Program-made: the position numbers and the translations under genes
Origin: Thermoanaerobaculaceae bacterium
Lineage (GTDB): Bacteria; Acidobacteriota; Thermoanaerobaculia; Thermoanaerobaculales; Thermoanaerobaculaceae
Assembly: GCA_013388425.1 (NCBI GenBank)
Contig: JACADV010000086.1
Span: forward strand, 1-64,000
DNA: 64,000 nt
Reading direction: 5' to 3'
In this document: positions 13,565-61,370 of the stretch, one piece after another
Layout: the number at the start of each line of letters is the position of its first letter
Numbering within the stretch: position 1 is the stretch's first letter
Notes under the pieces: generated by a model
What the model was told of the DNA's origin: nothing
Seen by the model: only the letters and a program-made list of their open reading frames with translations
Databases searched by the model: none

Positions 13565-15598
13565 TCAGCGCGCCGAGGCGACCAGCTCACGGAAGGCGGG
13601 GTTGGCCTGGAGGCGGTGGAAGTCGGGGGTGGCGAACCAGGCTCGTGGCGCGTGGAGCTGGATGGCCCGTCGGGTCCAGGCCAGGCAGGAGGTATCGTCA
13701 CCGTTGATGGCGGCCACGAGGGCAGCCACGAACACGGTTTCGGGGTTGTCCGGGAACTCGCGGATCGCCTCCTGCACGGCGAGGACGGCCTGTTCGCCGA
13801 GGCCCAGATGGGCCAGGCAGCGGGCTCGCAGGTCGAGCAGGGTGCGCGTGCGGCGGCCCGCATCCAGCTGTTCGGTGCACAGGGCGAGGGCGCGCCGGTA
13901 GGCCTGCGCGGCCTCCTGCTGTCGCCCCTGCACCAGCAGTGCGTCGGCTAGGTTGGCCATGGGCAGGGGATCGCTGGTGGCGAGGGTGGTGGCCCGCTGG
14001 TACAGCTCCGCGGCTTCCTGGTAGCGGCCCTGGAAGAACACGGCGTTGCCCAGGTTCACCAGGTCGCTCTTGGTCTCCCGCTGGGCCACCACCTCCCGGT
14101 AGAGCGCCTCGGACCTGGCGAAGTCGCCGGCGTACATCTCCACTTCTGCGAGCTTGGCGAGGGCGGAGGTGTTGGCCGGGGCCGCGGCGAGGATAGGGGC
14201 GAGGGTTTCCCGGGCAGCCGGGTAGTCGCCACGTGCGCGCCGCACGTCGGCGAGGAAGTAGAGCGTCTGCCAGGCGGGGCGCAGGGCGTAGGCGCGGCGG
14301 AGGGCGCGCTCCGCCTCGTCGTACCGACCAAGGGCGGCGAGGGTCTTGCCCAGTTCCGCCCAGGCCGAGGGATCGCCCGGGCGCTGCCGGGTCAACTCCC
14401 GGGCCCGCTCGGCAGCGGCCTCGGACTCGCCCTTGGCCACCAGCGCAGCAACCTGCACGAGCTGGACCTGGGGGTCCTCCGGGGCCAGCTCTAAAGCTCG
14501 CGCCAGGAGGCGGTCCATCTCGTCCCGGTGGGCGGCGTCGTGGGTGGTGGCGTAGAGGTAGCGGTGGATTGCCGCCAGGTTCACCACTGGATCCAGGTAG
14601 CGCGGCGAGGTGGCAATGGCGGAACGCAGCCGGGAGATCTCCTCGCGGTGGCCGGGGCTCGACCGGCCCCCCTCCAGCCGGGTGGTCGCTTCCAGGAAGG
14701 CACGGAGTGCGGCGGGGCTCGCTTCGCGCGGGGGAGCGGAGCGGGCGGTGGAGAACCCTCGGTAGCCATCCTCGAGGGTGGTGGTAACCCGATCCTGCAG
14801 CACGAAGAGGTCGTCGGCCGCCGTCTCCACCGTACGACTCCACAGCATCTTGCCGCTCGTCCCCTCCACCCGCGAGAGGGTGACGCGCCACAGCCGACCA
14901 CCCTCGCCGGGGGTGAGCGATGCCTCCACCAGCTCGTTGGCCCCCAGTTCCCGGGCGATGTCGGTGGGACGCCGATCCTCCGTGGCGATGGCCCGGACTT
15001 CGCGGCCGGAGATGGTGACGATACCCTCCAAGCGGGCGAGATGCTCGGCGATGGCGTGGGTGACGGCGGTGGCGGCCAGTGCGGCCCCTTCGGCCGACGT
15101 GTCGGTGGTGGCGGGGAGCACGGCGACCACACGCGGGGCGGGGCTGGAGAGCCAGCCAAAGTAAACCGCGCTGGCCACCAGAGCAGCCAGTGCCAGCACC
15201 GCCCCAGCGGCGGCGAGCCAGTGTTCCCGGGTGCGCCAGTAGAGGGCCGTGGCGGCCAGGGCACGGGTGGCCACCGCTGTCCCACCTGCCAGCTCGGGGC
15301 TGCGCAGGGCGCTGGCCACCTCCGCGGCGGTCTGGTAGCGATCGGCGGGTCGGCGAGCCATGCACCGCTCGATGACCCGCACGAGGGCCAGGGGCAGCCG
15401 CGGGTTGACCTGCCACACCGGCACGGCCCGACACCCCGCCACCCGGTGCATGATCTCTGCGGGCGTGCCGCCGTCGAAGGCCGGCCGTCCGCTGGCCAGC
15501 TCGTAGAGCAGCGAGCCCAGGGAAAAAATATCGCTGCGCGCATCGATGGCCTGGCCCAGCGCCTGTTCCGGCGACATGGCCCTGGTGGTGCCCACCAC
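13565..15598 (-). CDS. Ser/Thr kinase-TPR gene, downstream part after an in-frame TAG
   Basis: This 677-codon frame, starting nominally at GTG 15598, is the direct in-frame continuation of the kinase N-terminus at 15641-16105; only the TAG at 15638-15640 separates them. It supplies the end of the kinase domain (GTTRAMSPEQALG, RSDIFSLGSLLYELASGRPA, IERCMARRPADRYQTAAEVA), a membrane helix (WLAAAGAVLALAALVASAVYFG) and a FlgO/TolB-like module (VVAVLPATTD to LWSRTVETAADDLFVLQDRV). About 380 residues of TPR repeats follow (AWAELGKTLAALGRYDEAER, NLGNAVFFQGRYQEAAELY). GTTRAMSPEQ is, as far as I recall, an accepted acidobacterial variant of the activation segment. Made alone it would be an incomplete kinase. 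The frame is otherwise intact, so the break is recent, recoded, or a sequence error. Confidence 0.8.
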   Translation of the reverse strand: MVGTTRAMSPEQALGQAIDARSDIFSLGSLLYELASGRPAFDGGTPAEIMHRVAGCRAVPVWQVNPRLPLALVRVIERCMARRPADRYQTAAEVASALRSPELAGGTAVATRALAATALYWRTREHWLAAAGAVLALAALVASAVYFGWLSSPAPRVVAVLPATTDTSAEGAALAATAVTHAIAEHLARLEGIVTISGREVRAIATEDRRPTDIARELGANELVEASLTPGEGGRLWRVTLSRVEGTSGKMLWSRTVETAADDLFVLQDRVTTTLEDGYRGFSTARSAPPREASPAALRAFLEATTRLEGGRSSPGHREEISRLRSAIATSPRYLDPVVNLAAIHRYLYATTHDAAHRDEMDRLLARALELAPEDPQVQLVQVAALVAKGESEAAAERARELTRQRPGDPSAWAELGKTLAALGRYDEAERALRRAYALRPAWQTLYFLADVRRARGDYPAARETLAPILAAAPANTSALAKLAEVEMYAGDFARSEALYREVVAQRETKSDLVNLGNAVFFQGRYQEAAELYQRATTLATSDPLPMANLADALLVQGRQQEAAQAYRRALALCTEQLDAGRRTRTLLDLRARCLAHLGLGEQAVLAVQEAIREFPDNPETVFVAALVAAINGDDTSCLAWTRRAIQLHAPRAWFATPDFHRLQANPAFRELVASAR

Positions 15599-15637
15599 CA
15601 GCCCCTCGGCGGTGAGGTTCGCCTGGGCCTCGCGTGG

Positions 15638-16105
15638 CTATGTCCACTTGGCGAGTCCAAAGTCCAGGACCTTGACGTGGCCATCCGGCGTGATCATGAC
15701 GTTTTCCGTCTTCACGTCGCGGTGGATGAGACCGTGCTGGTGAGCGGCCTCCAGGGCGTCGGCCACGGCGGCGCCGATGCGCGCCACCTCGCTGGGGGCG
15801 AGGGGGCCGCCCTTGACGATCTTGGAGAGGGGCTGACCGTCGATGAACTCCATGACGATCCATTCCCGACCGCCATCCTGGACAATCTCGTAGACGTGGG
15901 CCACGTTGGGGTGTGAGAGGGCAGCCACGGCGCGGGCCTCGCGGCGCAGACGCGCCTGCTGCTCCGGCGAAGGGGTCCCGGAGAGCAGCCCCTTGATGGC
16001 CACCGGCCGCTGCAGCTCCTCGTCCCACCCCTGGTACACCTCGCCCATCCCCCCCACGCCCAGGGTCCTCACGATGCGGTAGCGACCGATGACTGCGGGT
16101 GGCAT
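15638..16105 (-). CDS. Ser/Thr protein kinase N-terminal part, ends at a premature TAG
   Basis: A 155-residue fragment of a Hanks-type kinase. ATG 16105 lies 9 bases after a TAGAAT box and has no Shine-Dalgarno sequence. Present are the glycine loop (IVRTLGVGGMGEVYQGWD), the ATP lysine (PVAIKG), the catalytic loop HRDVKTEN and DFGLAKW. The frame then stops at TAG 15638-15640, in the activation segment and before the APE-equivalent motif, so this product alone would lack the C-lobe. Reading through the TAG gives a protein of about 846 residues with the usual acidobacterial kinase-membrane-TPR layout. The two parts are therefore one broken or recoded gene. Confidence 0.8.
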   Translation of the reverse strand: MPPAVIGRYRIVRTLGVGGMGEVYQGWDEELQRPVAIKGLLSGTPSPEQQARLRREARAVAALSHPNVAHVYEIVQDGGREWIVMEFIDGQPLSKIVKGGPLAPSEVARIGAAVADALEAAHQHGLIHRDVKTENVMITPDGHVKVLDFGLAKWT

Positions 16106-16120: not shown

Positions 16121-17482
16121 GCTTGGCGGGGGGAATTGCGACCGCAGCGCTGTAGCGGCGCGCTCCCGCGCCGCCCGAGCGGAGGGGAGGGAGAGCGCCT
16201 CGGTGAAGGGCAACTCCCGCCCTCGCCCCGAGTCCACGGTGCGCAGTACGACGCGGTACTCGAGGCGGGCCCGCTCCCGAGCCCCTTGACGGGCGAGGCA
16301 GTCGGCGAGGAGCAGGCGGACCTGGAAGAGCTGCGCGTCTAGGAACAGTGCTGCCCGGTAGCCGGCCAGGGCAGCCGGCAGGTCGCCGCAGCTGTCGGCG
16401 AGGAGCCCTTCCAGGGCGTGGGCGGCTGGCTCAGTAGGGGTGGCGAGGAGGGCGGCTGCCACGGCCGATCGCGCCGCTTCCTGGCGACCCTCGGCGAGGG
16501 CCTGGACCGCGGTGGCCACCGCCTCGGCGCCGGGCAGCGGCAGGGGTCTGGTCGGGCCAGCTTCCACCTGGTGGGGAGGGGTGGAAGGGGCTGCCGGGGG
16601 GGTAGGGCGCGCAGGGCAGGCCAACGGGGGGGGTGGGACGGTGGGTGCTGGTGGTGGCGCTGGGGCAGGGTGGCGGTAGCAGAAGCAGTCCCCCAGGTCT
16701 ACGGGTGCCAGCTGGTCGGTGAGCTGCCAGAGGGTCTCGCAGGGGCCGAGGAAGAGGAACCCGTCTGGCGCCACGGTGGGCACGATGGCCTGCACCAGCC
16801 GCTGCTGCGCTTCGGGGCGGAAGTAGATGAGCACGTTGCGGAGGAAGACAACGTCGAAGGGTTGCTCGGGCAGGTCGAAGGGGGCGTGGACCAGGTTGAG
16901 GGCCCGATAGTCGAGCCGTTCTTGGAGGTGAGCGCTCAGGTGGAACTTGCCTCCGCGCTCGCGGAAGTAGCGATGGCGCAGCGGCTCGGGAACGGCGGCC
17001 ACGGCCCGGGCGCCGTAGACGCCGCTCTGCGCTACCGCCAGGGCCTCCTCGTCCACGTCGGTGGCGAGGATGCGCCAGTCCCACCCGGCCAGCTCCCGCA
17101 CCTCGGCGAGCACGATGGCCAGGGTTGCCGGCTCCTCCCCCCGGGCGCAACCCGCAGACCACAGACGCAGACGGCGGGTGCCGGCTCGCGCCACCAGCAG
17201 CTGCGGCACCACCACCTCGGCCACGGCCCGGAAGTGCTCCGGGGTGCGGAAGAAGTACGACTCCTTCACGGTGACGAGGGGCAGGAGCTGGCGCCACTCG
17301 TCGGCCAAAGCCCAGCCCTCCAAAGCTTGGACGTAGGCGGCCAGGTCGGCAAACCCGCCCGCCGCGGCCCGGCGCCGGCCCGCCTCGGCGAGGAGGGGTG
17401 CCTGGGCGGGGCCGACGGCGTTGCCGCTAGCCTCTTCCACTAGGTGCGCCAGACGGGCCAGGACACGGTCGCCGGGGATCAT
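16118..17482 (-). CDS. cheR: CheR-type methyltransferase with C-terminal TPR-like region (WspC-like)
   Basis: A 454-residue protein starting at ATG 17482, overlapping the diguanylate cyclase stop by 4 bases. Residues about 1-270 are CheR: LVTVKESYFFRTPEHFRAVA (N-terminal fold), LWSAGCARGEEPATLAIVLA (SAM-binding loop), ILATDVDEEALAVAQSGVYG and FDVVFLRNVLIYFRPEAQQR. A proline-rich linker follows, then a helical TPR-like region (HALEGLLADSCGDLPAALAG, RLLLADCLARQGARERARLE). It methylates receptor glutamates with S-adenosylmethionine. The TPR tail is the hallmark of WspC-type CheR in the Pseudomonas Wsp pathway and may tether it to the receptor array or to CheB. It is the last gene of the operon. 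Confidence 0.9.
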   Translation of the reverse strand: MIPGDRVLARLAHLVEEASGNAVGPAQAPLLAEAGRRRAAAGGFADLAAYVQALEGWALADEWRQLLPLVTVKESYFFRTPEHFRAVAEVVVPQLLVARAGTRRLRLWSAGCARGEEPATLAIVLAEVRELAGWDWRILATDVDEEALAVAQSGVYGARAVAAVPEPLRHRYFRERGGKFHLSAHLQERLDYRALNLVHAPFDLPEQPFDVVFLRNVLIYFRPEAQQRLVQAIVPTVAPDGFLFLGPCETLWQLTDQLAPVDLGDCFCYRHPAPAPPPAPTVPPPPLACPARPTPPAAPSTPPHQVEAGPTRPLPLPGAEAVATAVQALAEGRQEAARSAVAAALLATPTEPAAHALEGLLADSCGDLPAALAGYRAALFLDAQLFQVRLLLADCLARQGARERARLEYRVVLRTVDSGRGRELPFTEALSLPSARAARERAATALRSQFPPPS

Positions 17483-18903
17483 GGTTTGACGCAGTTGCGT
17501 CCGGCCTCCTTGGCCTGGTAGAGGCGACTGTCGGCGAGGGTAATTAGGGTATCGGCGCGGGCGTCGCTGCCCACTTCGATGAGGGTGGCCACCCCCAGGG
17601 AGGCGGTGATCCGCACCGCTTCGCCCGTGGGGAGGAGCACTTCTTCGTTGGCCACCGCCACGCGCAGGCGCTCGGCAGCGGCACGCGCTGCCTCCAGGTC
17701 GGTTTCCGGCAGGACCGCCAGGAACTCCTCGCCGCCAAAGCGGCCGAGGGAGTCGGCGGCCCGCAGCGCCGAGCGCATGGCCCGGGCGGCCGCCTGCAGC
17801 ACCGCATCGCCGGTCAGGTGGCCATAGGTGTCGTTGACGTTCTTGAAGTGGTCCAGGTCGCAAATCACCACGGAAAGCCTCGTGTCGTAGCGGTGCGCCC
17901 GGGTGATCTCCTCCACCAGGCGCTCGTGGATGGCCCGGTGGTTGAGCAGACGCGTCAGCCCGTCCAGCATGGAGAGCTCCCGCAGCCGTTGCGCCAGGCG
18001 CGAGTTGTCCAGCACCAGCCCCAGGTGGCGAATGGAGGCCTGGATGAGGGGCTGCGAGGTCTCGGCAAACTCCTGCCGGCGGCGGGGGAGGATGGCCAAC
18101 TGGCCCGCGGCATCGTGCAGTGCCAACTCCAGCGTGCAGAGGTCGTCCAGGCCAAGCACCTCGCTGCCCTCTCGCTCGCCGTGCACCACCACCTCCACGG
18201 ACGCGCCGGGCATGGCGGGCAACCGCTCCAGGAGCCGCCCCGCAAACGCCTGGATGGTCGGTTCCGCCACGGGGTGGGGGGCGAGGCAGTGCAGAGTCAC
18301 GAGTTGCGGTTCCGTCACGCCAATGCCCAGGAGGTGGGCGTCCACCACTTCGCTCAGGGTGGCCAGCACCGTGCGCAGGGTCTCGGGGAACTCGGTGGCA
18401 GCAATCCCCCGCTCCAGCAAGGTGTTGACAAAGGTGGTGCGGAGGAGGGTGGCGTCTAGGTGACGGGCCACTCGGCCGAGGATCTCGGTGGTCCCCAGGG
18501 TGGCGGAGGATCGGGGCGCGGGGGGCAGCGTCCCCCCGTCGGTGAGGCTTCTGACCAGGTCCACGATCTCGTCCTGGGCCTGGTCCTTGGTGAGGTAGCG
18601 GTCGGCGCCGGTGCGGTACCCCCAGAAGCGGGAGGGGGCGTCGCTGTGGCTCGTGAGGATGACCACCGGCACGTGGGCCGTCGCGGGATCGTTCTTGAGG
18701 AGGCGGAGGAGCTGGTAGCCGTCCATGATGGGCATTTCGAGGTCGGTGACCACCGCGTCGGGAGGGTCGGCGAGGGCCTTGAGGGCCCCGTCGGCACCGT
18801 CCGTGGCCTCGATCACCTCGAACCCCGCCCGGCTCAGGGTTCGGGCCAGGAGCGCCCTCGCCACCGTGCTGTCCTCCACCACGAGGATCCGGACCGGTTT
18901 CAC
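17479..18903 (-). CDS. Diguanylate cyclase response regulator, REC-GAF?-GGDEF (WspR-like)
   Basis: A 474-residue protein starting at GTG 18903, with AGGAG 7 bases upstream, overlapping the cheB stop (GTGA). Residues 1-120 are a receiver with phosphoacceptor Asp54 (VVTDLEMPIMDG). Residues about 150-300 look like a divergent GAF-type sensor (HLDATLLRTTFVNTLLERGI, VEVVVHGEREGSEVLGLDDL). Residues about 310-474 are GGDEF: LSMLDGLTRLLNHRAIHERL, ICDLDHFKNVNDTYGHLTGD, active-site GGEEF and, five residues before it, an RAAD inhibitory site. It should make c-di-GMP from two GTP when phosphorylated by the CheA encoded upstream, with product feedback. The extra middle domain distinguishes it from classical WspR. 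Confidence 0.9.
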   Translation of the reverse strand: MKPVRILVVEDSTVARALLARTLSRAGFEVIEATDGADGALKALADPPDAVVTDLEMPIMDGYQLLRLLKNDPATAHVPVVILTSHSDAPSRFWGYRTGADRYLTKDQAQDEIVDLVRSLTDGGTLPPAPRSSATLGTTEILGRVARHLDATLLRTTFVNTLLERGIAATEFPETLRTVLATLSEVVDAHLLGIGVTEPQLVTLHCLAPHPVAEPTIQAFAGRLLERLPAMPGASVEVVVHGEREGSEVLGLDDLCTLELALHDAAGQLAILPRRRQEFAETSQPLIQASIRHLGLVLDNSRLAQRLRELSMLDGLTRLLNHRAIHERLVEEITRAHRYDTRLSVVICDLDHFKNVNDTYGHLTGDAVLQAAARAMRSALRAADSLGRFGGEEFLAVLPETDLEAARAAAERLRVAVANEEVLLPTGEAVRITASLGVATLIEVGSDARADTLITLADSRLYQAKEAGRNCVKP

Positions 18904-19571
18904 GAAGTGCTCCTTTCGAGGTAGCGTGCCAGGAGCTCCCCCAGTTCGGCAGGGGGGAGCGACAGTTCCACAGCACCGCTTTCCAGAGCTGCCCGGGGCA
19001 TGCCGAAGACCACCGAGGATTCCTGATCCTGCGCCATGGTCAACCCTCCACACCGGCGCAACTCGGCCAATCCTAGCGCGCCGTCGGATCCCATGCCGGT
19101 GAGCACCACCCCCGCCGTGACCGTGGGGAACGTGCGGGCACAGGAGAGGAACAGCTCGTCCGCCGAGGGACGGTGGCCAGCGCGGGGGGGGGTGTCGCGG
19201 TCGACGTGCATTGTTTTGTCGGCCGTGAGGAGGAGGTGGGCGCCGGGCGGGGCGAGCCGGATGCGCCCGGGAGCGGCCGGCTCGCCGTCCCGCGCCACGG
19301 CCACGTCGGTCCCGAGCTTGCCGGCCAGCCAGCTGGCCAGGCTCTCCTCGAAGCCGGCCGCAATGTGCTGCACGAGCAGGAGGGCGGCTGGCAACGGCTT
19401 GGGCAACGGCTGGAGGAGCTGCAACGTGGCCTCCGGTCCTCCGGTGGAGGCGGCCACGGCAATGAAGCGCACCTGCCGGGAGAGCGGCGGCACCACTGGC
19501 TTTTTCGCTGCCCGGCCCGCGGCTGCTTTGGCGGGCGGCACTCGACGCGCCTCGGCCAGCGCGCGGATCAT
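18900..19571 (-). CDS. cheB: CheB methylesterase domain, downstream part of an interrupted cheB
   Basis: A 223-residue frame from ATG 19571. It carries a full CheB catalytic domain: nucleophile Ser in AVAASTGGPEATLQ, His in LVQHIAAGFEESLASWL and Asp in GVVLTGMGSDGALG. It removes methyl groups from receptor glutamates. No Shine-Dalgarno sequence precedes ATG 19571. This frame is in phase with the receiver frame upstream, and only TAG 19587-19589 plus five codons lie between. If made at all on its own, it lacks the receiver that normally holds CheB inactive. Its stop overlaps the diguanylate cyclase start. Confidence 0.85.
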   Translation of the reverse strand: MIRALAEARRVPPAKAAAGRAAKKPVVPPLSRQVRFIAVAASTGGPEATLQLLQPLPKPLPAALLLVQHIAAGFEESLASWLAGKLGTDVAVARDGEPAAPGRIRLAPPGAHLLLTADKTMHVDRDTPPRAGHRPSADELFLSCARTFPTVTAGVVLTGMGSDGALGLAELRRCGGLTMAQDQESSVVFGMPRAALESGAVELSLPPAELGELLARYLERSTS

Positions 19572-19586
19572 GCTCGCGAGGGTGTA

Positions 19587-19952
19587 CTAGAGCTGGCGCC
19601 ACCCTTCCGGTTCCGAGGGTTTGGCGAGGACCTCCACGGCCCCGCAGCGGGTCGCCTCGAAGGCGGAGGCGGCCTGGTCAGCGGGAGGGTGGGCGGTGAG
19701 GACGAGCACCGGGGTGGGGTGGCGTTGGGCAATCTGCTGGATGGCGGCGTGACCGTCAAGTACGGGCATGTCCAGGTCCATGACGATCACATCCGAGTGC
19801 AGCGTGGTCACCAGCTCCACCCCCCGCGCCCCGTCGCCCGCCTCGCCCACCACCTGGCAGGCGGGGTCGCGCTGCAGGAGGCGGCGCACGAGGGAGCGGA
19901 CCGTGGGCGAATCGTCCACGATCACGACACGGATTTGCCCCTCGCGCCTCAT
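19587..19952 (-). CDS. cheB: CheB receiver domain, upstream part of an interrupted cheB
   Basis: A 121-residue receiver starting at ATG 19952, overlapping the cheA stop (ATGA). It has the acidic pair Asp13/Asp14, phosphoacceptor Asp59 (VIVMDLDMPVLDGHAAIQQI), Thr in LVLTAHPP and Lys in EVLAKPSE, as in CheB/WspF receivers. It ends at TAG 19587-19589, just where the linker to the methylesterase should begin (EPEGWRQL). Read-through would give a CheB of about 350 residues, the family's normal length. It could act alone as a CheY-like protein, but the tight operon packing argues that it was one gene. Confidence 0.85.
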   Translation of the reverse strand: MRREGQIRVVIVDDSPTVRSLVRRLLQRDPACQVVGEAGDGARGVELVTTLHSDVIVMDLDMPVLDGHAAIQQIAQRHPTPVLVLTAHPPADQAASAFEATRCGAVEVLAKPSEPEGWRQL

Positions 19953-22009
19953 CGCCCGCTCAGCCTCCGCACCACCGCCACCAGCTCCAGAGCGTCCAGC
20001 CCCTGTTTCACGAAGTAGGCGTCGGCCCCAGCCTGCAGCGCCGCGAGCCGGTCCTCGCGGCGGCTGCGAGTCGAAACCACCACCACTGGCAGGGCGGCAA
20101 ACTGCGGGTCGGCGCGCAGCTTCCGGGTGAAGTCGAGGCCGTCCATCTCCGGCATCTCGATGTCCGTGACCACGCAGTCGAAACTGCTCGCGGCCACGAG
20201 CTCCAGGGCTTCGGGGGCGCTGGCGGCCCCCACCACTTCGAAGCCCGCATCCTCCAGGAGCCGGCGCTCCATCTCTCGCGTGACGAAGGAATCCTCCACC
20301 AGCAACACGCGCAGCCGCCGCCGTGCCGGTGGCGGCATGGCGATGCGCCGGGCCCGCACGCCGCTCCCGGACACCAGGGCGAGGGGCGAGAGCACCGCCA
20401 CCGGTTCCCCCGAGGCGAGGAGGGCGAGACCTTCCAAGAGCGGCGGTTCCCGCTCGAGGTTTGTGGCGCCTTGCACCAGCACTTCCTCCTCCCCCTCCAC
20501 GGTGTCCACCGCCACCGCCACCGCCTCACCGCCCACGTGGCCGCGCAGGAGCATCTGCCGCGGCGCTGGTTCGATCCCCAGGGTGGCCGCGAGAGGCAGG
20601 AAAGGCGTGAGACACCCCTCGCTCAGGACGAAGCTCTGCCCGTCGCGTTGCTGCACCTGGCTCGCGTGCAAAGGCTCCACCCGCTGCACCGCAGCAGCGG
20701 GGATGCCGCAGCGTATGGGCCCGACCCGCGCCACGAGGATGCGCTGGCCACGCCGCGCCGCCGGCACTTCCAGGGTCACGGTGGTGCCCTGGCCGGCGTG
20801 CCAGGCAAGGGACAGCTCCCCGCCCAGACGGCTGGCGACGCTGGCCACCACGTCGAGGCCAATGCCGCGCCCCGACACCGTGGAGACGGTGCGGCGCGTC
20901 GAGAAGCCGGGGCGCAGGAGCAGGTTGAGGACCTCTTCGGGGGCTGGATGATTGCCCGGCGGCACGATCCCGCGCGCCACGGCGGCCGCGGTCACCGCCT
21001 CGGGGTCGACGCCGGCGCCGTCGTCCTGGATGGACAGGCGCACGCGGGCGCCGGCGGGTGCGGCGGCAATGCGCAGGGTGCCGGTGGGGCGTTTCCCCGC
21101 CGCGCGTCGCCGCTCGGGCGTCTCGATCCCGTGGTCGATGGCGTTGCGGACCAGGTGGAGCATCGCCTCTTCCAAATCGTGGACGATGCGGCGGTCCAGC
21201 GAGGTGTCCTCCCCAGCCAGCTGCACCTCCACGTCCTTGCCCAGTTCGCGCGCCAGCTCCCGCGCGTGGCGGGCGAGGGTGAGGAGGAACGGTCGCAGCG
21301 GCTGCATCTGCAGGGAGAGCAGGGCCTCCAGTTGCGACTCGGTGGCCCAGGCCAGGCGCCGCTGGCTGCGTTCCAGGGCGAGCGCCTCGCGGCGCAGCGA
21401 GGCGATGAGGACGGCCAGGACCTGGGCCGGCCCCGCCTCTCCCACCCCCTGCTCGGCCAGGGAGGCGAGCTCGTCGAGACGGGACGCAAAGCGGGCGAGG
21501 CCCCGCGCCTGGATGCGCAACGCCACGGCTCCATCGGCCAGTTCGTCGAGCACGTTACTGCTGTGGCTAGCTGCCGGCAGGGTGGGTGCTGCCGTCGCTG
21601 CCACTGTGGGGGTGGCAGGCGGGGCGGGGGTGGGGGTGGCCGTCCCGGCTTCCGGTTCACTGGAGCGCAGCGCCTCCAGGAGGGCGGTGTCGTCGCTGGG
21701 TTCCTCCCCCGCCGCCACCGTCTCCACCATCCCCGCCAGGCGGTCCACCACCCGGGTGAGGAGGGGAGGTGGCGGGGGTGCGTCGCCCTGGAGCACCGCT
21801 TCCGCCGCGTGGCAGAGGGTGGCGATGGCCGAGAGCGAGAGCATGCGGCTCGCCCCTTTGAGGGTGTGCAGCTCTCGGCGCAGCTCCTGGGCGAGCTGTG
21901 GCTCGTGGGGGAGGCGGGTCGAGAGGGTTGCGAGTCGCTCGAGCCGCTCCCGAGCCTCGCCGACGAACAACGGCAAGAGATCGGCAAACTCGCCGTTCAA
22001 CGCCGTCAC
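19949..22009 (-). CDS. cheA: Hybrid chemosensory histidine kinase CheA-REC (WspE-like)
   Basis: A 686-residue protein starting at GTG 22009 behind AGGGGGT. Domain order: HPt with phospho-His48 (RRELHTLKGASRML); a Pro/Ala/Thr linker (about 130-170); a dimerisation region; HATPase with N-box HLVRNAIDHGIETPERR, DDGAGVDPEAV and GRGIGLDVVASV; a CheW-like domain (about 430-540, GQRILVARVGPIRCGIPAAA); and a C-terminal receiver (about 560-686) with VVTDIEMPEMDGLDF and a lysine in FVKQG. It phosphorylates the CheB receiver and the REC-GGDEF protein. The built-in receiver is typical of WspE and of non-flagellar (alternative cellular function) pathways. It starts 8 bases after the receptor gene. Confidence 0.92.
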   Translation of the reverse strand: MTALNGEFADLLPLFVGEARERLERLATLSTRLPHEPQLAQELRRELHTLKGASRMLSLSAIATLCHAAEAVLQGDAPPPPPLLTRVVDRLAGMVETVAAGEEPSDDTALLEALRSSEPEAGTATPTPAPPATPTVAATAAPTLPAASHSSNVLDELADGAVALRIQARGLARFASRLDELASLAEQGVGEAGPAQVLAVLIASLRREALALERSQRRLAWATESQLEALLSLQMQPLRPFLLTLARHARELARELGKDVEVQLAGEDTSLDRRIVHDLEEAMLHLVRNAIDHGIETPERRRAAGKRPTGTLRIAAAPAGARVRLSIQDDGAGVDPEAVTAAAVARGIVPPGNHPAPEEVLNLLLRPGFSTRRTVSTVSGRGIGLDVVASVASRLGGELSLAWHAGQGTTVTLEVPAARRGQRILVARVGPIRCGIPAAAVQRVEPLHASQVQQRDGQSFVLSEGCLTPFLPLAATLGIEPAPRQMLLRGHVGGEAVAVAVDTVEGEEEVLVQGATNLEREPPLLEGLALLASGEPVAVLSPLALVSGSGVRARRIAMPPPARRRLRVLLVEDSFVTREMERRLLEDAGFEVVGAASAPEALELVAASSFDCVVTDIEMPEMDGLDFTRKLRADPQFAALPVVVVSTRSRREDRLAALQAGADAYFVKQGLDALELVAVVRRLSGR

Positions 22010-22017
22010 GCGACCCC

Positions 22018-23649
22018 CTAGATCTTGGTCCAGCTGCGCAGGTTCACATCGAGGCCCAAGACCGCAGCAATGGCGCCGGTGCGGTCGCGCACCGGTGCCG
22101 CCACGGTAAAGCACGGCTCACCGGTGAGCATCGACTGGTAGAGCGGGGTGAGGATGGCGCAGCCGTCCCGCATGGTGCTCTGGAACCATGGACGGTCGGA
22201 AAAGTTGGCGCCCACGGTCACGTTGGCGGGGACCTGGGCGTCCCCCTTGGCGTCGCCGCCCAGCGCAAAGGCGAGCATGGTGCCGTTGCGGTCGGTCAGG
22301 TACGCGAGCTCCACCGAGGGGGCCTCACGCACCGCGGCGACCAGCCACCCCTCCACCGCTTCCCAGTGGCCGGTGTGGGCCGACAGCTCCGCTGCCCAGC
22401 GTTCCACCAGGTTCTTGAGGGAGCGGGGGGAGTCGAGGCGGAACGACTGGGTGAGGAGCTGGATGGAGAGGGCCAGGGTGTCCACCTTTTCCGCGGCGCC
22501 CCGGAAGCTCTTGAGGCTGTCCGCCATCTTGTGGATCACCTCGCTCACCTCGCGCAGGGTGAGCACCACCTGGTCGGAAGCGGTGCGCTGCTCCTCGGTG
22601 GCCAGGGAAATCTCCCGCGCCGCGCGGGCGGTGTCGGAGAGGGCGCCGCGGAGTTCGGCAATGGCGGCGGCAGCCCGGCGCGAGCGTTCCAACACCCGCA
22701 CCGCCTCCTTCCCGGCCTCTTCGGTAGCCACCACGGCAGCCCGAATGGAGGCGGCAAAGTCGTCCAGGAGGGAGCGCACCGACTCCACCGATTCCCGGGA
22801 GCGTTGCGCCAGTCGCCGCACCTCCTCGGCCACCACCGTGAAGCGCTTGCCGGCTTCGCCGCCCGTGGAGGCTTCGATGGCAGCGTTCAAGGAGAGGATG
22901 TGGGTCTCGTGGGCGATCTCGGTGATGAGGTCCAGGATGCGGTAGATCTCCTTGGCGCGACTGCCCACATCGTCGGCGCGCGAGGCCACGTCGGCAATCC
23001 GCTGCTGCACCGCCTCCACGCCGGCCAGGGCCTCGGTGACAGCGTCGGCTCCGGCGGTGCCGCTCTCCTCGGCCTTGGCCGCCAGCTCGGCCTGGGTGGC
23101 AGCGTTGCGGGCAATCTGCGCCGCTGTGCGCGCGAGTTGTTCCATGGTGGCGGTGATCTCCACCACGGCGGCCGCCTGTTCCGCCGATCCGGAGGCCAGG
23201 TCGGCGGCGGTGGTGTGGACCACGTCGCTGGCGGCGGCGGTTTCTGTGGAGCTGTTCTGGATCTGCTGCACGAGGGAGGTGAGGGAGGTGACCGCCGCCT
23301 CGAAGGCGGAGCGGAGTTCGGCGGGCATGGGAGCCGTGGCATCCGCCAGGTGGGTGAGGTTGCCGCGGCGGATGCTCTCCAGGGCAGTCAGCAGCGCCTC
23401 GCCGAGCAACTCGGTCTCCCGCTGTTCTGCCTCTTGCGCCTGGCGGCTGCGCCGCTGGGGCAGGTACGCGCCAACCACGTAGACCACGAGCAACACCGAG
23501 GCTGCCAGGAGGAAGGCGTCGAAGACCCAGGCCGGGGCGCCACGGGCCACCGCGAACACCAGGTTCGCGCCGGCGACCAGCGCCAGTGCCACCGTTACGG
23601 CAAGCCCCACTCCCGCTCCATCCCGCCCGGTTGGTGCCGACACGCTCAT
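22018..23649 (-). CDS. Methyl-accepting chemotaxis-type receptor with C-terminal Cache-like domain
   Basis: A 543-residue receptor starting at ATG 23649, with AGGAGG 8 bases upstream. Two membrane helices (residues about 12-32 and 40-62) are joined by only a few residues, so there is no periplasmic sensor. The cytoplasmic coiled coil has the receptor tip IAHETHILSLNAAIEAS with GKRFTVVAEEVRRLAQRS, which binds CheA and CheW. After it, residues about 430-543 look like a PDC/Cache sensor (VELAYLTDRNGTMLAFALGG, NFSDRPWFQSTMRDG, TPLYQSMLTGEPCFTVAAPV, AAVLGLDVNL). Cache domains are usually extracytoplasmic and N-terminal, so this would sense something inside the cell. It lies 2 bases after cheW. Confidence 0.88.
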   Translation of the reverse strand: MSVSAPTGRDGAGVGLAVTVALALVAGANLVFAVARGAPAWVFDAFLLAASVLLVVYVVGAYLPQRRSRQAQEAEQRETELLGEALLTALESIRRGNLTHLADATAPMPAELRSAFEAAVTSLTSLVQQIQNSSTETAAASDVVHTTAADLASGSAEQAAAVVEITATMEQLARTAAQIARNAATQAELAAKAEESGTAGADAVTEALAGVEAVQQRIADVASRADDVGSRAKEIYRILDLITEIAHETHILSLNAAIEASTGGEAGKRFTVVAEEVRRLAQRSRESVESVRSLLDDFAASIRAAVVATEEAGKEAVRVLERSRRAAAAIAELRGALSDTARAAREISLATEEQRTASDQVVLTLREVSEVIHKMADSLKSFRGAAEKVDTLALSIQLLTQSFRLDSPRSLKNLVERWAAELSAHTGHWEAVEGWLVAAVREAPSVELAYLTDRNGTMLAFALGGDAKGDAQVPANVTVGANFSDRPWFQSTMRDGCAILTPLYQSMLTGEPCFTVAAPVRDRTGAIAAVLGLDVNLRSWTKI

Positions 23650-23651
23650 GG

Positions 23652-24089
23652 TCACTGCCTCCTTTCCCCCCCCAGGGCCGCCAGCTCGAGGACGTGGAGC
23701 ACAGTTCCCTGCCACGTCCCCCGGGCCTGCACGAGACCGCTGCCCGTTGCCGTGAGGTGCGGTGGCACCTCCACAACCCCCACCGCCGCATCGGCGGCGA
23801 GCCCCACGGACCCGCCTTCGCCGCGCGTGCGGACCACCACGGTCACGGGAAACTCCGCCACGGCCCCCGCTGGGGCTCCCACCAGGGCTGCCAGGTCCAA
23901 CACAGGCAACGGCTCGCCCCCGTACTCGGCCAAGCCCAGCAGGTTGGGGTCGGTGGCGGGGCAGGGAACCACGGTGAGGGCTGGGACGACGCTGCGGACC
24001 TGCTCCACGGCCATGGCGCACAGGTGCTCCCCCGTTGCCACCACCAGGTACCGTCCCCCGTGGGCGCCGCCCTCGCGCTCCCGGTTCAC
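23652..24089 (-). CDS. cheW: CheW coupling protein
   Basis: A 145-residue CheW-like domain: RYLVVATGEHLCAMAVEQVR, PCPATDPNLLGLAEYGGEPL, PVLDLAALVG and a strand pair ending VVVRTRGEGGSVGLAADAAV. It couples the receptor to CheA. The start is GTG 24089; no Shine-Dalgarno sequence precedes it, but a GC-TACTCT box ends 6 bases upstream, so it may be translated from a leaderless message. It heads the chemosensory operon. Only one CheW gene is present, whereas classical Wsp systems have two. Confidence 0.8.
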   Translation of the reverse strand: MNREREGGAHGGRYLVVATGEHLCAMAVEQVRSVVPALTVVPCPATDPNLLGLAEYGGEPLPVLDLAALVGAPAGAVAEFPVTVVVRTRGEGGSVGLAADAAVGVVEVPPHLTATGSGLVQARGTWQGTVLHVLELAALGGERRQ

Positions 24090-37515: not shown

Positions 37516-37544
37516 TTGACGAATCGCCGAATTGACAATATAGT
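37516..37544 (+). promoter_or_regulatory. Promoter of the cytochrome/barrel operon
   Basis: TTGACG at 37516-37521, a 17-base spacer and TATAGT at 37539-37544, in a locally AT-rich stretch that stands out from the GC-rich surroundings. Transcription would start near 37551, 68 bases before ATG 37619. It is the best consensus promoter in the window. Confidence 0.75.
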
Positions 37545-37618
37545 TATTTTCTGAAGCGTTGGCCACGGCAGTGCCGACGCGGGGGCGAACGGGTGCAACC
37601 AACCACAAGGAGGCGTCG

Positions 37619-37963
37619 ATGAAATCACTTCTCTGGATCGGAGTTGTGGGCTGCCTGGTGCTGGTGGGCGTGGCGATGGCCGCCGACAAGCCCGCCGACG
37701 GCCGGGAGCTCTACAAGGAGTACTGCAAGTCGTGCCACGGGCCGAACTCGCCCCACGGCGAGGTGACGCCCATGAGCCTGATCGTGGAGCAGTGGGAGCG
37801 TTTCTTTGCCGAGAAGCTGGAGCCCTCCCATCGCTCGGTCCTGGACCCAAAGCACGACAACCGGCCGGTGCTGGAGGTGATCACACCGGAGATGCTGAAG
37901 AAGATCAAGGAGTTTGCCATCGAGCACGCGGCCGACTCCGAACACCCCATGACCTGCGGCTAG
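37619..37963 (+). CDS. Periplasmic monohaem cytochrome c
   Basis: A 114-residue protein at ATG 37619 with AAGGAGG 5 bases upstream. A signal peptide (MKSLLWIGVVGCLVLVGVAM, cleaved near AADK) is followed by one haem-binding motif, CKSCH, in GRELYKEYCKSCHGPNSPHG. The likely distal ligand is a Met, either in TPMSLIV or in TPEMLKKIKEFAIEH. It is probably a small periplasmic electron carrier. It is first of three genes with the DUF3373-type barrel and the octahaem cytochrome, and likely shuttles electrons to or from that enzyme. Confidence 0.88.
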   Translation: MKSLLWIGVVGCLVLVGVAMAADKPADGRELYKEYCKSCHGPNSPHGEVTPMSLIVEQWERFFAEKLEPSHRSVLDPKHDNRPVLEVITPEMLKKIKEFAIEHAADSEHPMTCG

Positions 37964-37993
37964 CGGGCACACTCGATTGGAGAGGAGGAGACC

Positions 37994-39631
37994 ATGAAGA
38001 AACGTATCCTGGCGGTGTTGGCGGCAGCCGTGTTGCCGGTGGCTGCCCTGGCCCAGAGCGGCGAGGACGAGGCCGCCGTCCTGAAGAAGGAGATCAAGGA
38101 GCTGGAGAAGCGGCTCGAGAAGGTGGAGCGGTCGGCGGCTCAGGACCGCGTGCGCTTTGGTGGCGACTACCGTTTCGAGGCGCACTCCATCGCCGCCGAT
38201 GTGCCGGCCCACTTTGACGGCATGAAGCTCCAGAACTTGCTGGTGAACACCATGTTCTACTACGGTGCCACGGGCAACTTCCCGGCCAACCTGGGGGCTG
38301 TCAACGAGCTGATCCGCTCCCACTACGCCGATTACCTCTACTTCACCAACTCGCTCACCTTCGACCAGCTCAAGGCGGCCATGGCCATGTTCCCGCCGCA
38401 GGCGCAGCAGCAGCTCTTCGGGATGCTGCTACCCGCCACGGCCGTGGCCGGCTACGACGCGGACAACTCCCTCATGTACACCAACCGCCTGCGCCTGTCC
38501 ATGGAAGCGGACGTGGCGCAGAACGTGAAGTTCACCGGGCGGCTGGCCATGTACAAGACGTGGGGGGATTCCACCGGTGTGCAGGTGTTCAACGGCCAGG
38601 CCAACTCCTTTAGCATCGACGGAAACACGGTGGGCGTGCCCAACTCCGACATCCTGCGCGTGGAACGGGCCTACTTCGACTGGACCAACCTCTTTGGCAC
38701 CGGCCTCTACCTGTCCATCGGCCGGCGCCCCTCCGCCGGTGGACCGCCCATGCACCTGCGCCAGGGGGAGCTGCGGGGCGGGAGCCCCATGGGGGCCATC
38801 ATCGACTTCCAGTTCGATGGCATCACCATCGGCTACCACTTGAACGAAAACTCCACGCTGCGCCTGTGCTACGGCCGCGGCTACGAGAGCGGCTTCGGCA
38901 ACGGGGACGTGCTGCAACAGCCGGCCGATCGCCTCAAGGATGCGGACTTTGCCGGCATCAACTGGGACATCTACGCCACCGATGACATGCTCCTCCAGGC
39001 TACGGTGGCGCGCGCCTTCAACCTCACCGACGGGTTCAACGGCCTCATCGTGCTGCCCAACAACCCCGTCACCGGCCAGGCCATCGGTGCCCCCCTGGTG
39101 ATGCGCTTCACCCCCTCGGCGAACCTGGGCGACATGGACATTGCCGGCCTCCTGCTCCAGCGCCACGACGGGCCGGTGGACTGGTTCGTCAACCTGGACT
39201 ACGTGAAGAGCCACCCGGACAACGTCACGACCCCCTTCGGCGGTCTCTTCTCCGACCCCTTCGACACGCCCACCTCGCATTCCGGCTCCATGTGGTACGT
39301 GGGTGGGCGCTACACCTTCCCCGGCGAGACCACCCTGGTGGGGCTCGAGCTCAACCACGGCTCCCGCTACTGGTTCAACTTCACCCCCGCCCAGGACGAC
39401 ATCGTGGCGCCGAAGACCTCGACGCGTGGCGACGTGGTGGAGGCGTACCTCATCCACAAGGTGGCCAAGCGCTTCCTCGTGAAGGTGGGCTACATCGACT
39501 ACAGCTACGACTACTCCGGCTCGGGGTGGCACCTGGGTACGCCCAAGAAACTGGACGAGAACCCCATTCTTGGCTTCCCCACCTACGAGAGCGCCAGCAT
39601 GTTCACGCTCTCCATGTCCGCGAGGTTCTAG
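37994..39631 (+). CDS. Outer-membrane beta-barrel protein, DUF3373 type
   Basis: A 545-residue protein at ATG 37994 behind GGAGAGGAGG. Signal peptide (MKKRILAVLAAAVLPVAALA), then a short coiled coil (AAVLKKEIKELEKRLEKVER) and a long barrel of alternating amphipathic strands (VRFGGDYRFEAHS, NRLRLSMEADVAQNVKFTGR, ITIGYHLNENSTLRLCYGRG, GSMWYVGGRYTFPGETT), ending in terminal Phe (SMSARF). Barrels of this kind occur next to multihaem cytochromes in anaerobic respirers. It may be a porin for the octahaem enzyme's substrate or a sheath for electron transfer across the outer membrane. It sits 30 bases after the cytochrome c gene. Confidence 0.78.
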   Translation: MKKRILAVLAAAVLPVAALAQSGEDEAAVLKKEIKELEKRLEKVERSAAQDRVRFGGDYRFEAHSIAADVPAHFDGMKLQNLLVNTMFYYGATGNFPANLGAVNELIRSHYADYLYFTNSLTFDQLKAAMAMFPPQAQQQLFGMLLPATAVAGYDADNSLMYTNRLRLSMEADVAQNVKFTGRLAMYKTWGDSTGVQVFNGQANSFSIDGNTVGVPNSDILRVERAYFDWTNLFGTGLYLSIGRRPSAGGPPMHLRQGELRGGSPMGAIIDFQFDGITIGYHLNENSTLRLCYGRGYESGFGNGDVLQQPADRLKDADFAGINWDIYATDDMLLQATVARAFNLTDGFNGLIVLPNNPVTGQAIGAPLVMRFTPSANLGDMDIAGLLLQRHDGPVDWFVNLDYVKSHPDNVTTPFGGLFSDPFDTPTSHSGSMWYVGGRYTFPGETTLVGLELNHGSRYWFNFTPAQDDIVAPKTSTRGDVVEAYLIHKVAKRFLVKVGYIDYSYDYSGSGWHLGTPKKLDENPILGFPTYESASMFTLSMSARF

Positions 39632-58888: not shown

Positions 58889-58967
58889 GCACGCAGCTCG
58901 AACGCTGCCGAGGCCGAGAACGCGGCCGGTGGCGGTGGCGGGGCTGTTGGGGTAGGATGGCGTCGCC

Positions 58968-59417
58968 ATGCACCACTGGGTTGTGGTTGCCCTCCTCCTG
59001 GTTGGCTGCTGCCCTGCCGGAGCGGGAGCTGCCGAGCCGAAAACACCCCTGGCCTGGGAGGTGGTGTCCCAAAAAACCCCGAAGGTGGTGTGGGCGAACA
59101 TGCAGCAGCAGGTGGTGCTGCGCCTGCGCAATGCGGGGACGGCTAGGTGGAGCACCGAGGCGGGGGACAACCTGTCGTACCACTGGTTGACCCCGGACGG
59201 GCACATGTTCCTGCGCGATGGCCTGCGTACCCCGTACCCCCACGAGGTTTTGCCCGGCGAGGTGGTGGAGGTGGTGGCGCGCGTCCAGGCGCCTGCCGAT
59301 GCGGGGCGCTACCTCTTAGAGTGGGAGCCGGTGCGGGAGCTGGTCAAGTGGTACGGCCCGCCGGTGGGGAGCGAGCGGCTGCGGCTTCCGGTGTGGGTGA
59401 CGTGGCGCTGCGCCTGA
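58968..59417 (+). CDS. Exported Ig-like domain protein
   Basis: A 149-residue protein from ATG 58968 with signal peptide MHHWVVVALLLVGCCPAGAG (the Cys pair could be a weak lipobox). The mature part is one beta-sandwich: VVLRLRNAGTARWSTEAGDN, LSYHWLTPDGHMFLRDGLRT, PYPHEVLPGEVVEVVARVQA and YLLEWEPVRELVKWYGPPVG. This pattern recurs as an accessory domain in bacterial glycan-related proteins. It precedes the LtaS-like gene by 6 bases and may act with it. TAGGAT at 58953-58958 may be its -10. Confidence 0.65.
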   Translation: MHHWVVVALLLVGCCPAGAGAAEPKTPLAWEVVSQKTPKVVWANMQQQVVLRLRNAGTARWSTEAGDNLSYHWLTPDGHMFLRDGLRTPYPHEVLPGEVVEVVARVQAPADAGRYLLEWEPVRELVKWYGPPVGSERLRLPVWVTWRCA

Positions 59418-59423
59418 GTCGGC

Positions 59424-61370
59424 GTGGGCTTTGGCGTGATGACCCTGGCGCTCGCGGTGGCGGGCCGGCTCGCGGTCCGTCGCTGGCCCGAGGCTGGCTG
59501 GTGGTGGCGTGCCTTCGTGCCGGTGGCGTGGAGCTGGGCAGCCGTCCAGCTCGTCACCGTCGCCTTCTCGGAGCTGGTGGGGCGGCAGCTGTGGAGCGGG
59601 GTGCCGTGGCTCGCTGCCTCGGCCTCGGCGCTGCTCGCTGTGCCGGTGGCGCTCGTCCCGGTGCGGGCGCGCACGTGGGTGGCGCTGGCAGTGGCGACGC
59701 TGGTCACGGTGACGGCGGCGGGAGATCTCCTCTACCTGCGCTGGTTCGGCAACCTGGTACCGGTGGAGGCACTGGCGGCGGCTCGCCAGCTCGGGCAAGC
59801 GGAGGGGAGTGTTCGCTCCTTGTTCGTCGGCACCGACGCCTGGCTTGCTCCGGCCGTCCTCGCTGGCGTGCTGCTCGTGCTGGTGGCACCCCGGATCCGT
59901 TGGGAGGCGCGGCCGCCCCGCTGGGGTCGCTCCCTCGTGGTTGGTGCGACCCTCCTGGGCGTGGGGCTGGCAACGCTCCCGGCGGTGGGGGCGCTGCGCC
60001 GCGCCTTGCGCGAGCCGGCAACGGCACGGCAGGTCTTCTCGCAGCAGCAACTTTTGGGGCAGTGGGGGGTGGTGAATCTGCACCTTTTGGACGTGGGGCG
60101 AGCCCTCGAGCGAACGCTCCACCACGAGCAGCTCCCGCCGCAACGGGTCGCCCAGGTGCAGGAGCTCTTCCGGCGGCGCGCCGCAGCCGCGCCAGCCGAG
60201 GGGCCGGGGTGGGCGGCGGCGAGGGGTTGCAACCTTGTCCTCGTGCAGGCGGAGTCACTGCAGCAGTGGGTGATTGGGGCCCACCTGGGCGGGGTGGAGA
60301 TCACGCCCTTCTTGAATTCCATTGCGGCCCGCGGGTTGTACTTTTCCCGGGTCTTCGATCAGACCGCCGAGGGGCGCTCCTCCGATGGCGAGTTCGTGGC
60401 CCTCAACTCGCTCTTGCCGTTGCCCCGGGGGGCGGTGGCGTTCCTGCGCGCTGGCAACCGCTTCCACGCCCTCCCGGCGGTGCTCCGGGAGCACGGTTAC
60501 GCCACCCTTTCTGCCCACGCCTTCGAACGGGGTTTCTGGAACCGGGCCACCCTCCACCCCCGCTACGGTTTTGGCCGCTCGCTCTTCGACCAGGAGCTGG
60601 GGGGCGGCGAGATGATCGGGTGGGGGCTTGCCGACGGCGTGTTCCTGGAGCGCATGGTGCCGCACCTCGGCACACTCCCCCAGCCGTTCTTCGCCTTCCT
60701 TATCACCCTGGGGCTGCACCACCCCTTCGACCAGTTCCCCCCCCGGCACCGGGTGCTGGAGGTGGGGGACCTGGCCGGTACCCCCCTTGCCAACTACATC
60801 CACAGCATGCACTACCTGGATGGGCAGTTGCAGCGGTTCGTGACGGCCCTGGAGGCAGCGGGACTGTTGGACCACACGGTGGTGGCGGTGTACGGCGACC
60901 ACGAATCCGGCCTCAACCTCGACGCGAATTTGCTGCGTCTCCTCGGCATCGGCGAGTGGAACCCAGTGCTGCCATTGCAGCTGCGCCGTGTCCCGTTGCT
61001 GGTGCTCCTCCCCGGTGCCTCGCTCACCGGCGAGGTGCGGGAGGTGGGGGGGCATGTGGACATTGCGCCCACCTTGCTGCACCTGCTGGGACTCCCCCGG
61101 CCGGCGAATTTTCTGGGGAGCGCGCTTGAGCCCGCTCGCAACGCGGTGGTGGCGATTCCCGGCGGATCGGCCGTGGGGCGGGGCGTGATCTTTGCTGCCC
61201 GGGGTGCCGGCATCCCCGACGGCGGGGCGTGCTTTAGCTACGAAGACGGCCACGTCAGACCGCTCGACGCGTGCCGGGGTGTGGCGGAGGAGGCCCGCGC
61301 CCTCCTCGAGGCGTCCGCCACCGTGCTGGAGGGCGACCTGGTCCCCCTCCTCGCCAACCAAGGGCCTTAG
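59424..61370 (+). CDS. LtaS-like membrane sulfatase/phosphoglycerol transferase
   Basis: A 648-residue protein; GTG 59424 is taken, with GTG 59436 and ATG 59439 as alternatives and no clear ribosome site. Residues about 1-190 form five membrane helices. The extracytoplasmic sulfatase domain has LVLVQAESLQQWVIGAHLGG (metal Glu), the nucleophile segment FDQTAEGRSSDGEFVALNSL (Thr, as in LtaS TGQGKTSD), FFAFLITLGLHHPFDQFPPR (His) and VAVYGDHESGLNLDANLLR (Asp/His). LtaS enzymes move glycerol phosphate from phosphatidylglycerol. In diderms related proteins (OpgB/EptA-like) modify glycans or lipid A. The substrate here is unknown. Confidence 0.88.
   Translation: MGFGVMTLALAVAGRLAVRRWPEAGWWWRAFVPVAWSWAAVQLVTVAFSELVGRQLWSGVPWLAASASALLAVPVALVPVRARTWVALAVATLVTVTAAGDLLYLRWFGNLVPVEALAAARQLGQAEGSVRSLFVGTDAWLAPAVLAGVLLVLVAPRIRWEARPPRWGRSLVVGATLLGVGLATLPAVGALRRALREPATARQVFSQQQLLGQWGVVNLHLLDVGRALERTLHHEQLPPQRVAQVQELFRRRAAAAPAEGPGWAAARGCNLVLVQAESLQQWVIGAHLGGVEITPFLNSIAARGLYFSRVFDQTAEGRSSDGEFVALNSLLPLPRGAVAFLRAGNRFHALPAVLREHGYATLSAHAFERGFWNRATLHPRYGFGRSLFDQELGGGEMIGWGLADGVFLERMVPHLGTLPQPFFAFLITLGLHHPFDQFPPRHRVLEVGDLAGTPLANYIHSMHYLDGQLQRFVTALEAAGLLDHTVVAVYGDHESGLNLDANLLRLLGIGEWNPVLPLQLRRVPLLVLLPGASLTGEVREVGGHVDIAPTLLHLLGLPRPANFLGSALEPARNAVVAIPGGSAVGRGVIFAARGAGIPDGGACFSYEDGHVRPLDACRGVAEEARALLEASATVLEGDLVPLLANQGP

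Follow-up and report, generated by a model that had tools for sequence, protein, structure and literature searches.

Whether an in-frame stop codon in an otherwise conserved signalling gene reflects biology or a wrong base is the question raised by the cheB gene analyzed here, which lies in the window (the whole stretch of 64,000 nucleotides under study) of a 2.14 Mb metagenome assembly with 109 contigs, about 83% completeness and 70% G+C. The gene starts at ATG 19952 on the reverse strand, and its first 121 codons are followed by TAG 19589-19587, downstream of which the same phase is open as far as TGA 18902-18900 (Table 1). Pfam searches assigned Response_reg to the N-terminal part (E 6e-24) and CheB_methylest to the C-terminal part (E 1e-54), and both CheB domains lie in one phase with the TAG splitting them. 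This agrees with the first-pass annotation, which had described a receiver frame ending in TAG with the methylesterase in the same phase, and had put the read-through product at about 350 aa. The interrupted cheB is a real observation and an ordinary phenomenon: the TAG is very probably a lone nonsense substitution that is neither conserved nor programmed and represents either a wrong base in the consensus or a recent null allele.

Table 1. Features of the interrupted cheB, its gene cluster, and other genes with internal stops (window positions unless a contig label is given).
Feature	Position	Strand	Basis or remark
Chemosensory cluster (CheW, MCP, CheA-REC, CheB, REC-GGDEF, CheR)	16121..24089	-	
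CheW	23655-24089	-	chemosensory cluster
MCP	22018-23478	-	chemosensory cluster
CheA with receiver	19952-22114	-	chemosensory cluster
REC-GGDEF regulator	17482-18909	-	chemosensory cluster
CheR	16121-17482	-	chemosensory cluster; followed by a TPR-containing Ser/Thr kinase
cheB frame read across the internal TAG, 350 codons and terminal TGA	18900..19952	-	open reading frames, Pfam, relatives
Internal TAG at codon 122 of the whole cheB frame	19587..19589	-	28 relatives have a sense codon here
Receiver part, 121 aa, PF00072, lacking most of last helix	19590..19952	-	Pfam and 1A2O alignment
Methylesterase part, PF01339, Ser/His/Asp intact	18903..19586	-	Pfam and residue check
ATG five codons past the TAG, without Shine-Dalgarno	19569..19571	-	sequence and duplex score
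GTG, candidate weak restart, GAGG 8 nt before it	19539..19541	-	sequence and duplex score
TPR-containing Ser/Thr kinase next to cheR on its downstream side, TAG 15640-15638	13565-16105	-	
LtaS-like sulfatase, TGA 59415-59417	58956-61367	+	
galT, TAA	L150:705		
Response regulator, TAG	L150:9472		
ABC ATPase, TAG	L151:9858		
Probable histidine kinase, TAG	L182:19678		
Kinase, TAA	L206:2872		

The stop had been placed between receiver and methylesterase, which is inexact. In the alignment with Salmonella CheB (1A2O), codon 122 corresponds to approximately residue 120, a position that we take, from knowledge of the fold and its helix limits, to be inside receiver helix alpha5. Judged by this alignment, the TAG cuts the predicted receiver short inside its last helix rather than parting two whole domains. 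The copy shows no sign of long decay: the receiver acidic pair, the phospho-acceptor Asp59, Thr86 and Lys111 are all intact, the catalytic Ser169, His196 and Asp290 are present and invariant in relatives, and divergence from relatives is similar to that of neighbouring genes. Relaxed selection on cheB was considered and rejected, the receiver distances being slightly raised and not clearly beyond those of the neighbouring genes. A run of nine C, indel-prone in principle, is present at about position 19190 (reverse strand) in the methylesterase part, where the frame is intact.

The comparison with relatives, which the first-pass annotation had proposed with sense codons as the sign of a sequence error, revealed a sense codon at the TAG site in all 28 genomes whose cheB could be aligned (11 belong to the family, 17 to the order and class), at family distance only (about 49-57% identity). 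The residue in this column is mostly Ala, and otherwise Ser, Gly, Cys, Gln and others. Since cheB is a single unbroken gene in these relatives and stays collinear through the site, chance juxtaposition of two frames is ruled out. No other genome of the same genus was among the relatives searched, and the closest named matches in a contig search were Acidobacteria MAGs. Within the family, cheB was alignable in 11 of 16 members and uninterrupted in every one of them; the other five gave no CheB match, and one of these five is 96% complete, which indicates that cheB is dispensable in the family.

Full-length CheB might still be produced by programmed read-through, by suppression or by amber recoding, and we consider this highly improbable. 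The frame does continue normally past the TAG, and the 17% of the genome that is unseen leaves room for a suppressor tRNA. However, RF1 and RF2, told apart by reading their sequence motifs, are both encoded in this genome, and TAG terminates rpsS, rplE, rplR and rpoA in the ribosomal-protein operon (genes named by reading of their sequences), with the next gene in frame after each. A tRNA with a CUA anticodon was not found among the 38 tRNAs of the 83% complete assembly, within which none of the marks of amber recoding (a CUA tRNA, loss of RF1, TAG unused as a stop) was seen. The stop itself, which programmed read-through should conserve, occurs in 0 of 28 relatives. Because RF1 is present, TAG ends core genes before in-frame neighbours and a CUA tRNA was not found, read-through and recoding are disfavoured, including the programmed read-through suggested earlier. 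Amber reassignment, suspected from the internal TAGs, was rejected in view of the TAA and TGA cases, the TAG stops of the ribosomal operon, RF1, and a stop spectrum matching codon usage. A different picture was obtained for a TlpA/thioredoxin-like protein of this genome (G000:C58:11923-12378, within L160:11923-12573), in which an in-frame UGA lies in the motif FWFPT-U-xxC and recurs at exactly the same column in 16 other acidobacterial genomes (L268-L283). From its sequence context this UGA is probably selenocysteine. A tRNA-Sec was not clearly found in this genome, where the RF01852 matches resembled Leu and Ser tRNAs, and a literature search on TlpA-like selenocysteine gave no direct match.

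About seven further genes with an internal stop came to light in family searches and in scans that covered about 1.04 Mb of this genome. In the Ser/Thr kinase downstream of cheR, the TAG lies between DFG and an APE-like motif and the Pkinase profile matches across it; for the LtaS-like sulfatase, the only relative found (G001) has an open frame through all 774 aligned residues (49% identity); the histidine kinase is probable only, its alignment being weak. At 70% G+C, the candidate lists (codon scan, tblastn) contained a great many shadow frames from the opposite strand, and stops were kept where conserved sequence was readable on both sides, as judged by eye; some of the searches were aimed at signalling families. 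Including cheB, there are 5 TAG, 2 TAA and 1 TGA; for this codon usage, random substitution predicts 64%, 15% and 20%, respectively, and because the spectrum matches this expectation the dominance of TAG needs no special cause. Internal stops interrupted 4 of 81 domain matches here versus about 3 of 455 in relatives (three families; p about 0.012), the latter number being approximate, as it was taken from the best matches of longer lists in genomes of differing quality. These small numbers suggest an excess over relatives. A literature search on premature stops in metagenome assemblies gave no match. The assembly thus carries single-base stops, and broken genes in it should be taken as biology only when reads support them. 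In a relative (G006, L263:1881-2438), the homologues of window positions 37543-39628 (a cytochrome-c-like gene and the next gene) contain a TAG and apparent frameshifts and are an ordinary decaying pseudogene. A CRISPR-like array, in which a repeat of roughly 36 nt occurs at least 8 times, spaced 74-78 nt apart, was also observed in the assembly (L143:1-634, G000:C78).

As to the origin of the TAG, a consensus base error alone, with the organism's cheB intact and the TAG a wrong base of the assembly, comes very near to an even chance. This is a metagenome assembly with internal stops in about eight genes, and no frameshifts accompanying them were seen in the 341 kb of this genome covered by homology; the stop types are those predicted by random substitution, and receiver and catalytic residues are intact. 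Nevertheless, the stops tend to fall in signalling genes and hit no evident core gene, a preference that errors would not respect, in a search partly biased to such families. A real, recent null allele in a lineage losing the pathway through ordinary mutation is a strong possibility, if short of the more probable half: the lack of a CheB match in part of the family and the internal TAG in the kinase just downstream of cheR are in its favour, whereas the stops come without accompanying frameshifts, and cheB and the adjacent genes otherwise appear to be under constraint. Sequence error, one of the explanations offered in the first-pass annotation, survives alongside plain one-off loss, with random-type stops in about seven other genes. 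The selected or phase-like loss offered with it is unsupported, as neither a repeat nor a switch could be seen around the TAG and those other stops are of the same random type.

A fixed and selected split, with a short receiver on the one hand and, on the other, an unregulated methylesterase that is produced separately by reinitiation and holds the c-di-GMP pathway off, is quite unlikely, although the downstream frame is open, ATG and GTG codons lie within 45 nt, the catalytic residues are intact, and reinitiation is possible without a strong Shine-Dalgarno sequence, whose loss usually lowers it and does not necessarily abolish it (PMC6728339). ATG 19571 has no Shine-Dalgarno sequence, as had been stated, its upstream region giving +0.7 kcal/mol in a duplex with ACCUCCUUA. 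GTG 19541 with its GAGG, a second candidate restart overlooked in the earlier reading, gave -5.9 kcal/mol, a value equalled at about 16-25% of cheB positions. Duplex scores across the gene place neither restart signal above background; moreover, the receiver is cut inside its last helix, and the split is absent from all 28 relatives examined.

For an isolated nonsense substitution that is real, RF1 would stop translation within the final receiver helix, giving a truncated receiver, and the methylesterase part would then arise from weak termination-reinitiation at ATG 19571 or GTG 19541, or would not arise at all. Phosphorylation-controlled receptor demethylation would consequently be lost. Both the absence of read-through at the TAG and the effect on signalling are what we infer. 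The active site of CheB is reported to be occluded until phosphorylation opens up its two domains (PMC8609364), so the expectation for a free esterase is that it would drive the pathway off. Whether the pathway is turned off or on would depend on the product, being off with a free esterase and on with a wspF-type loss. The hyper-biofilm outcome predicted earlier is accordingly uncertain, as a C-terminal part restarted as an unregulated esterase would push the pathway off, not on.

Compared with known systems, the cluster resembles the Wsp pathway, in which wspF mutations switch signalling on (PMC8552884), in having an MCP, a CheW, a CheA with receiver, a CheB (corresponding to WspF), a REC-GGDEF regulator and a CheR together. 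The earlier Wsp comparison was right in kind as to this component set; the gene order differs. Instead of wspA-wspF synteny with two CheW proteins, the order is CheW-MCP-CheA-CheB-REC-GGDEF-CheR with a single CheW seen, and the same order was found by tblastn positions in G001, G007, G015 and G002. Wsp clusters defined by synteny have been reported only from beta- and gammaproteobacteria (PMC8552884). Salmonella CheB (1A2O) lacks the interruption near residue 120 but has the same receiver and methylesterase, and, once the TAG is read through, the two proteins align collinearly across residues 6-333 (E 4e-48). Recoded stops such as the selenocysteine UGA share with cheB an in-frame stop within a conserved protein, but the TlpA-like stop is conserved in 16 relatives and the cheB TAG in none, which provides a cheap test: a truly recoded stop is kept in relatives and a stray one is not. 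From an ordinary nonsense pseudogene or base error, the tests run here distinguished the locus in no respect, and it shares with them a single stop, an intact remaining frame, a lack of conservation and the company of several unrelated affected genes.
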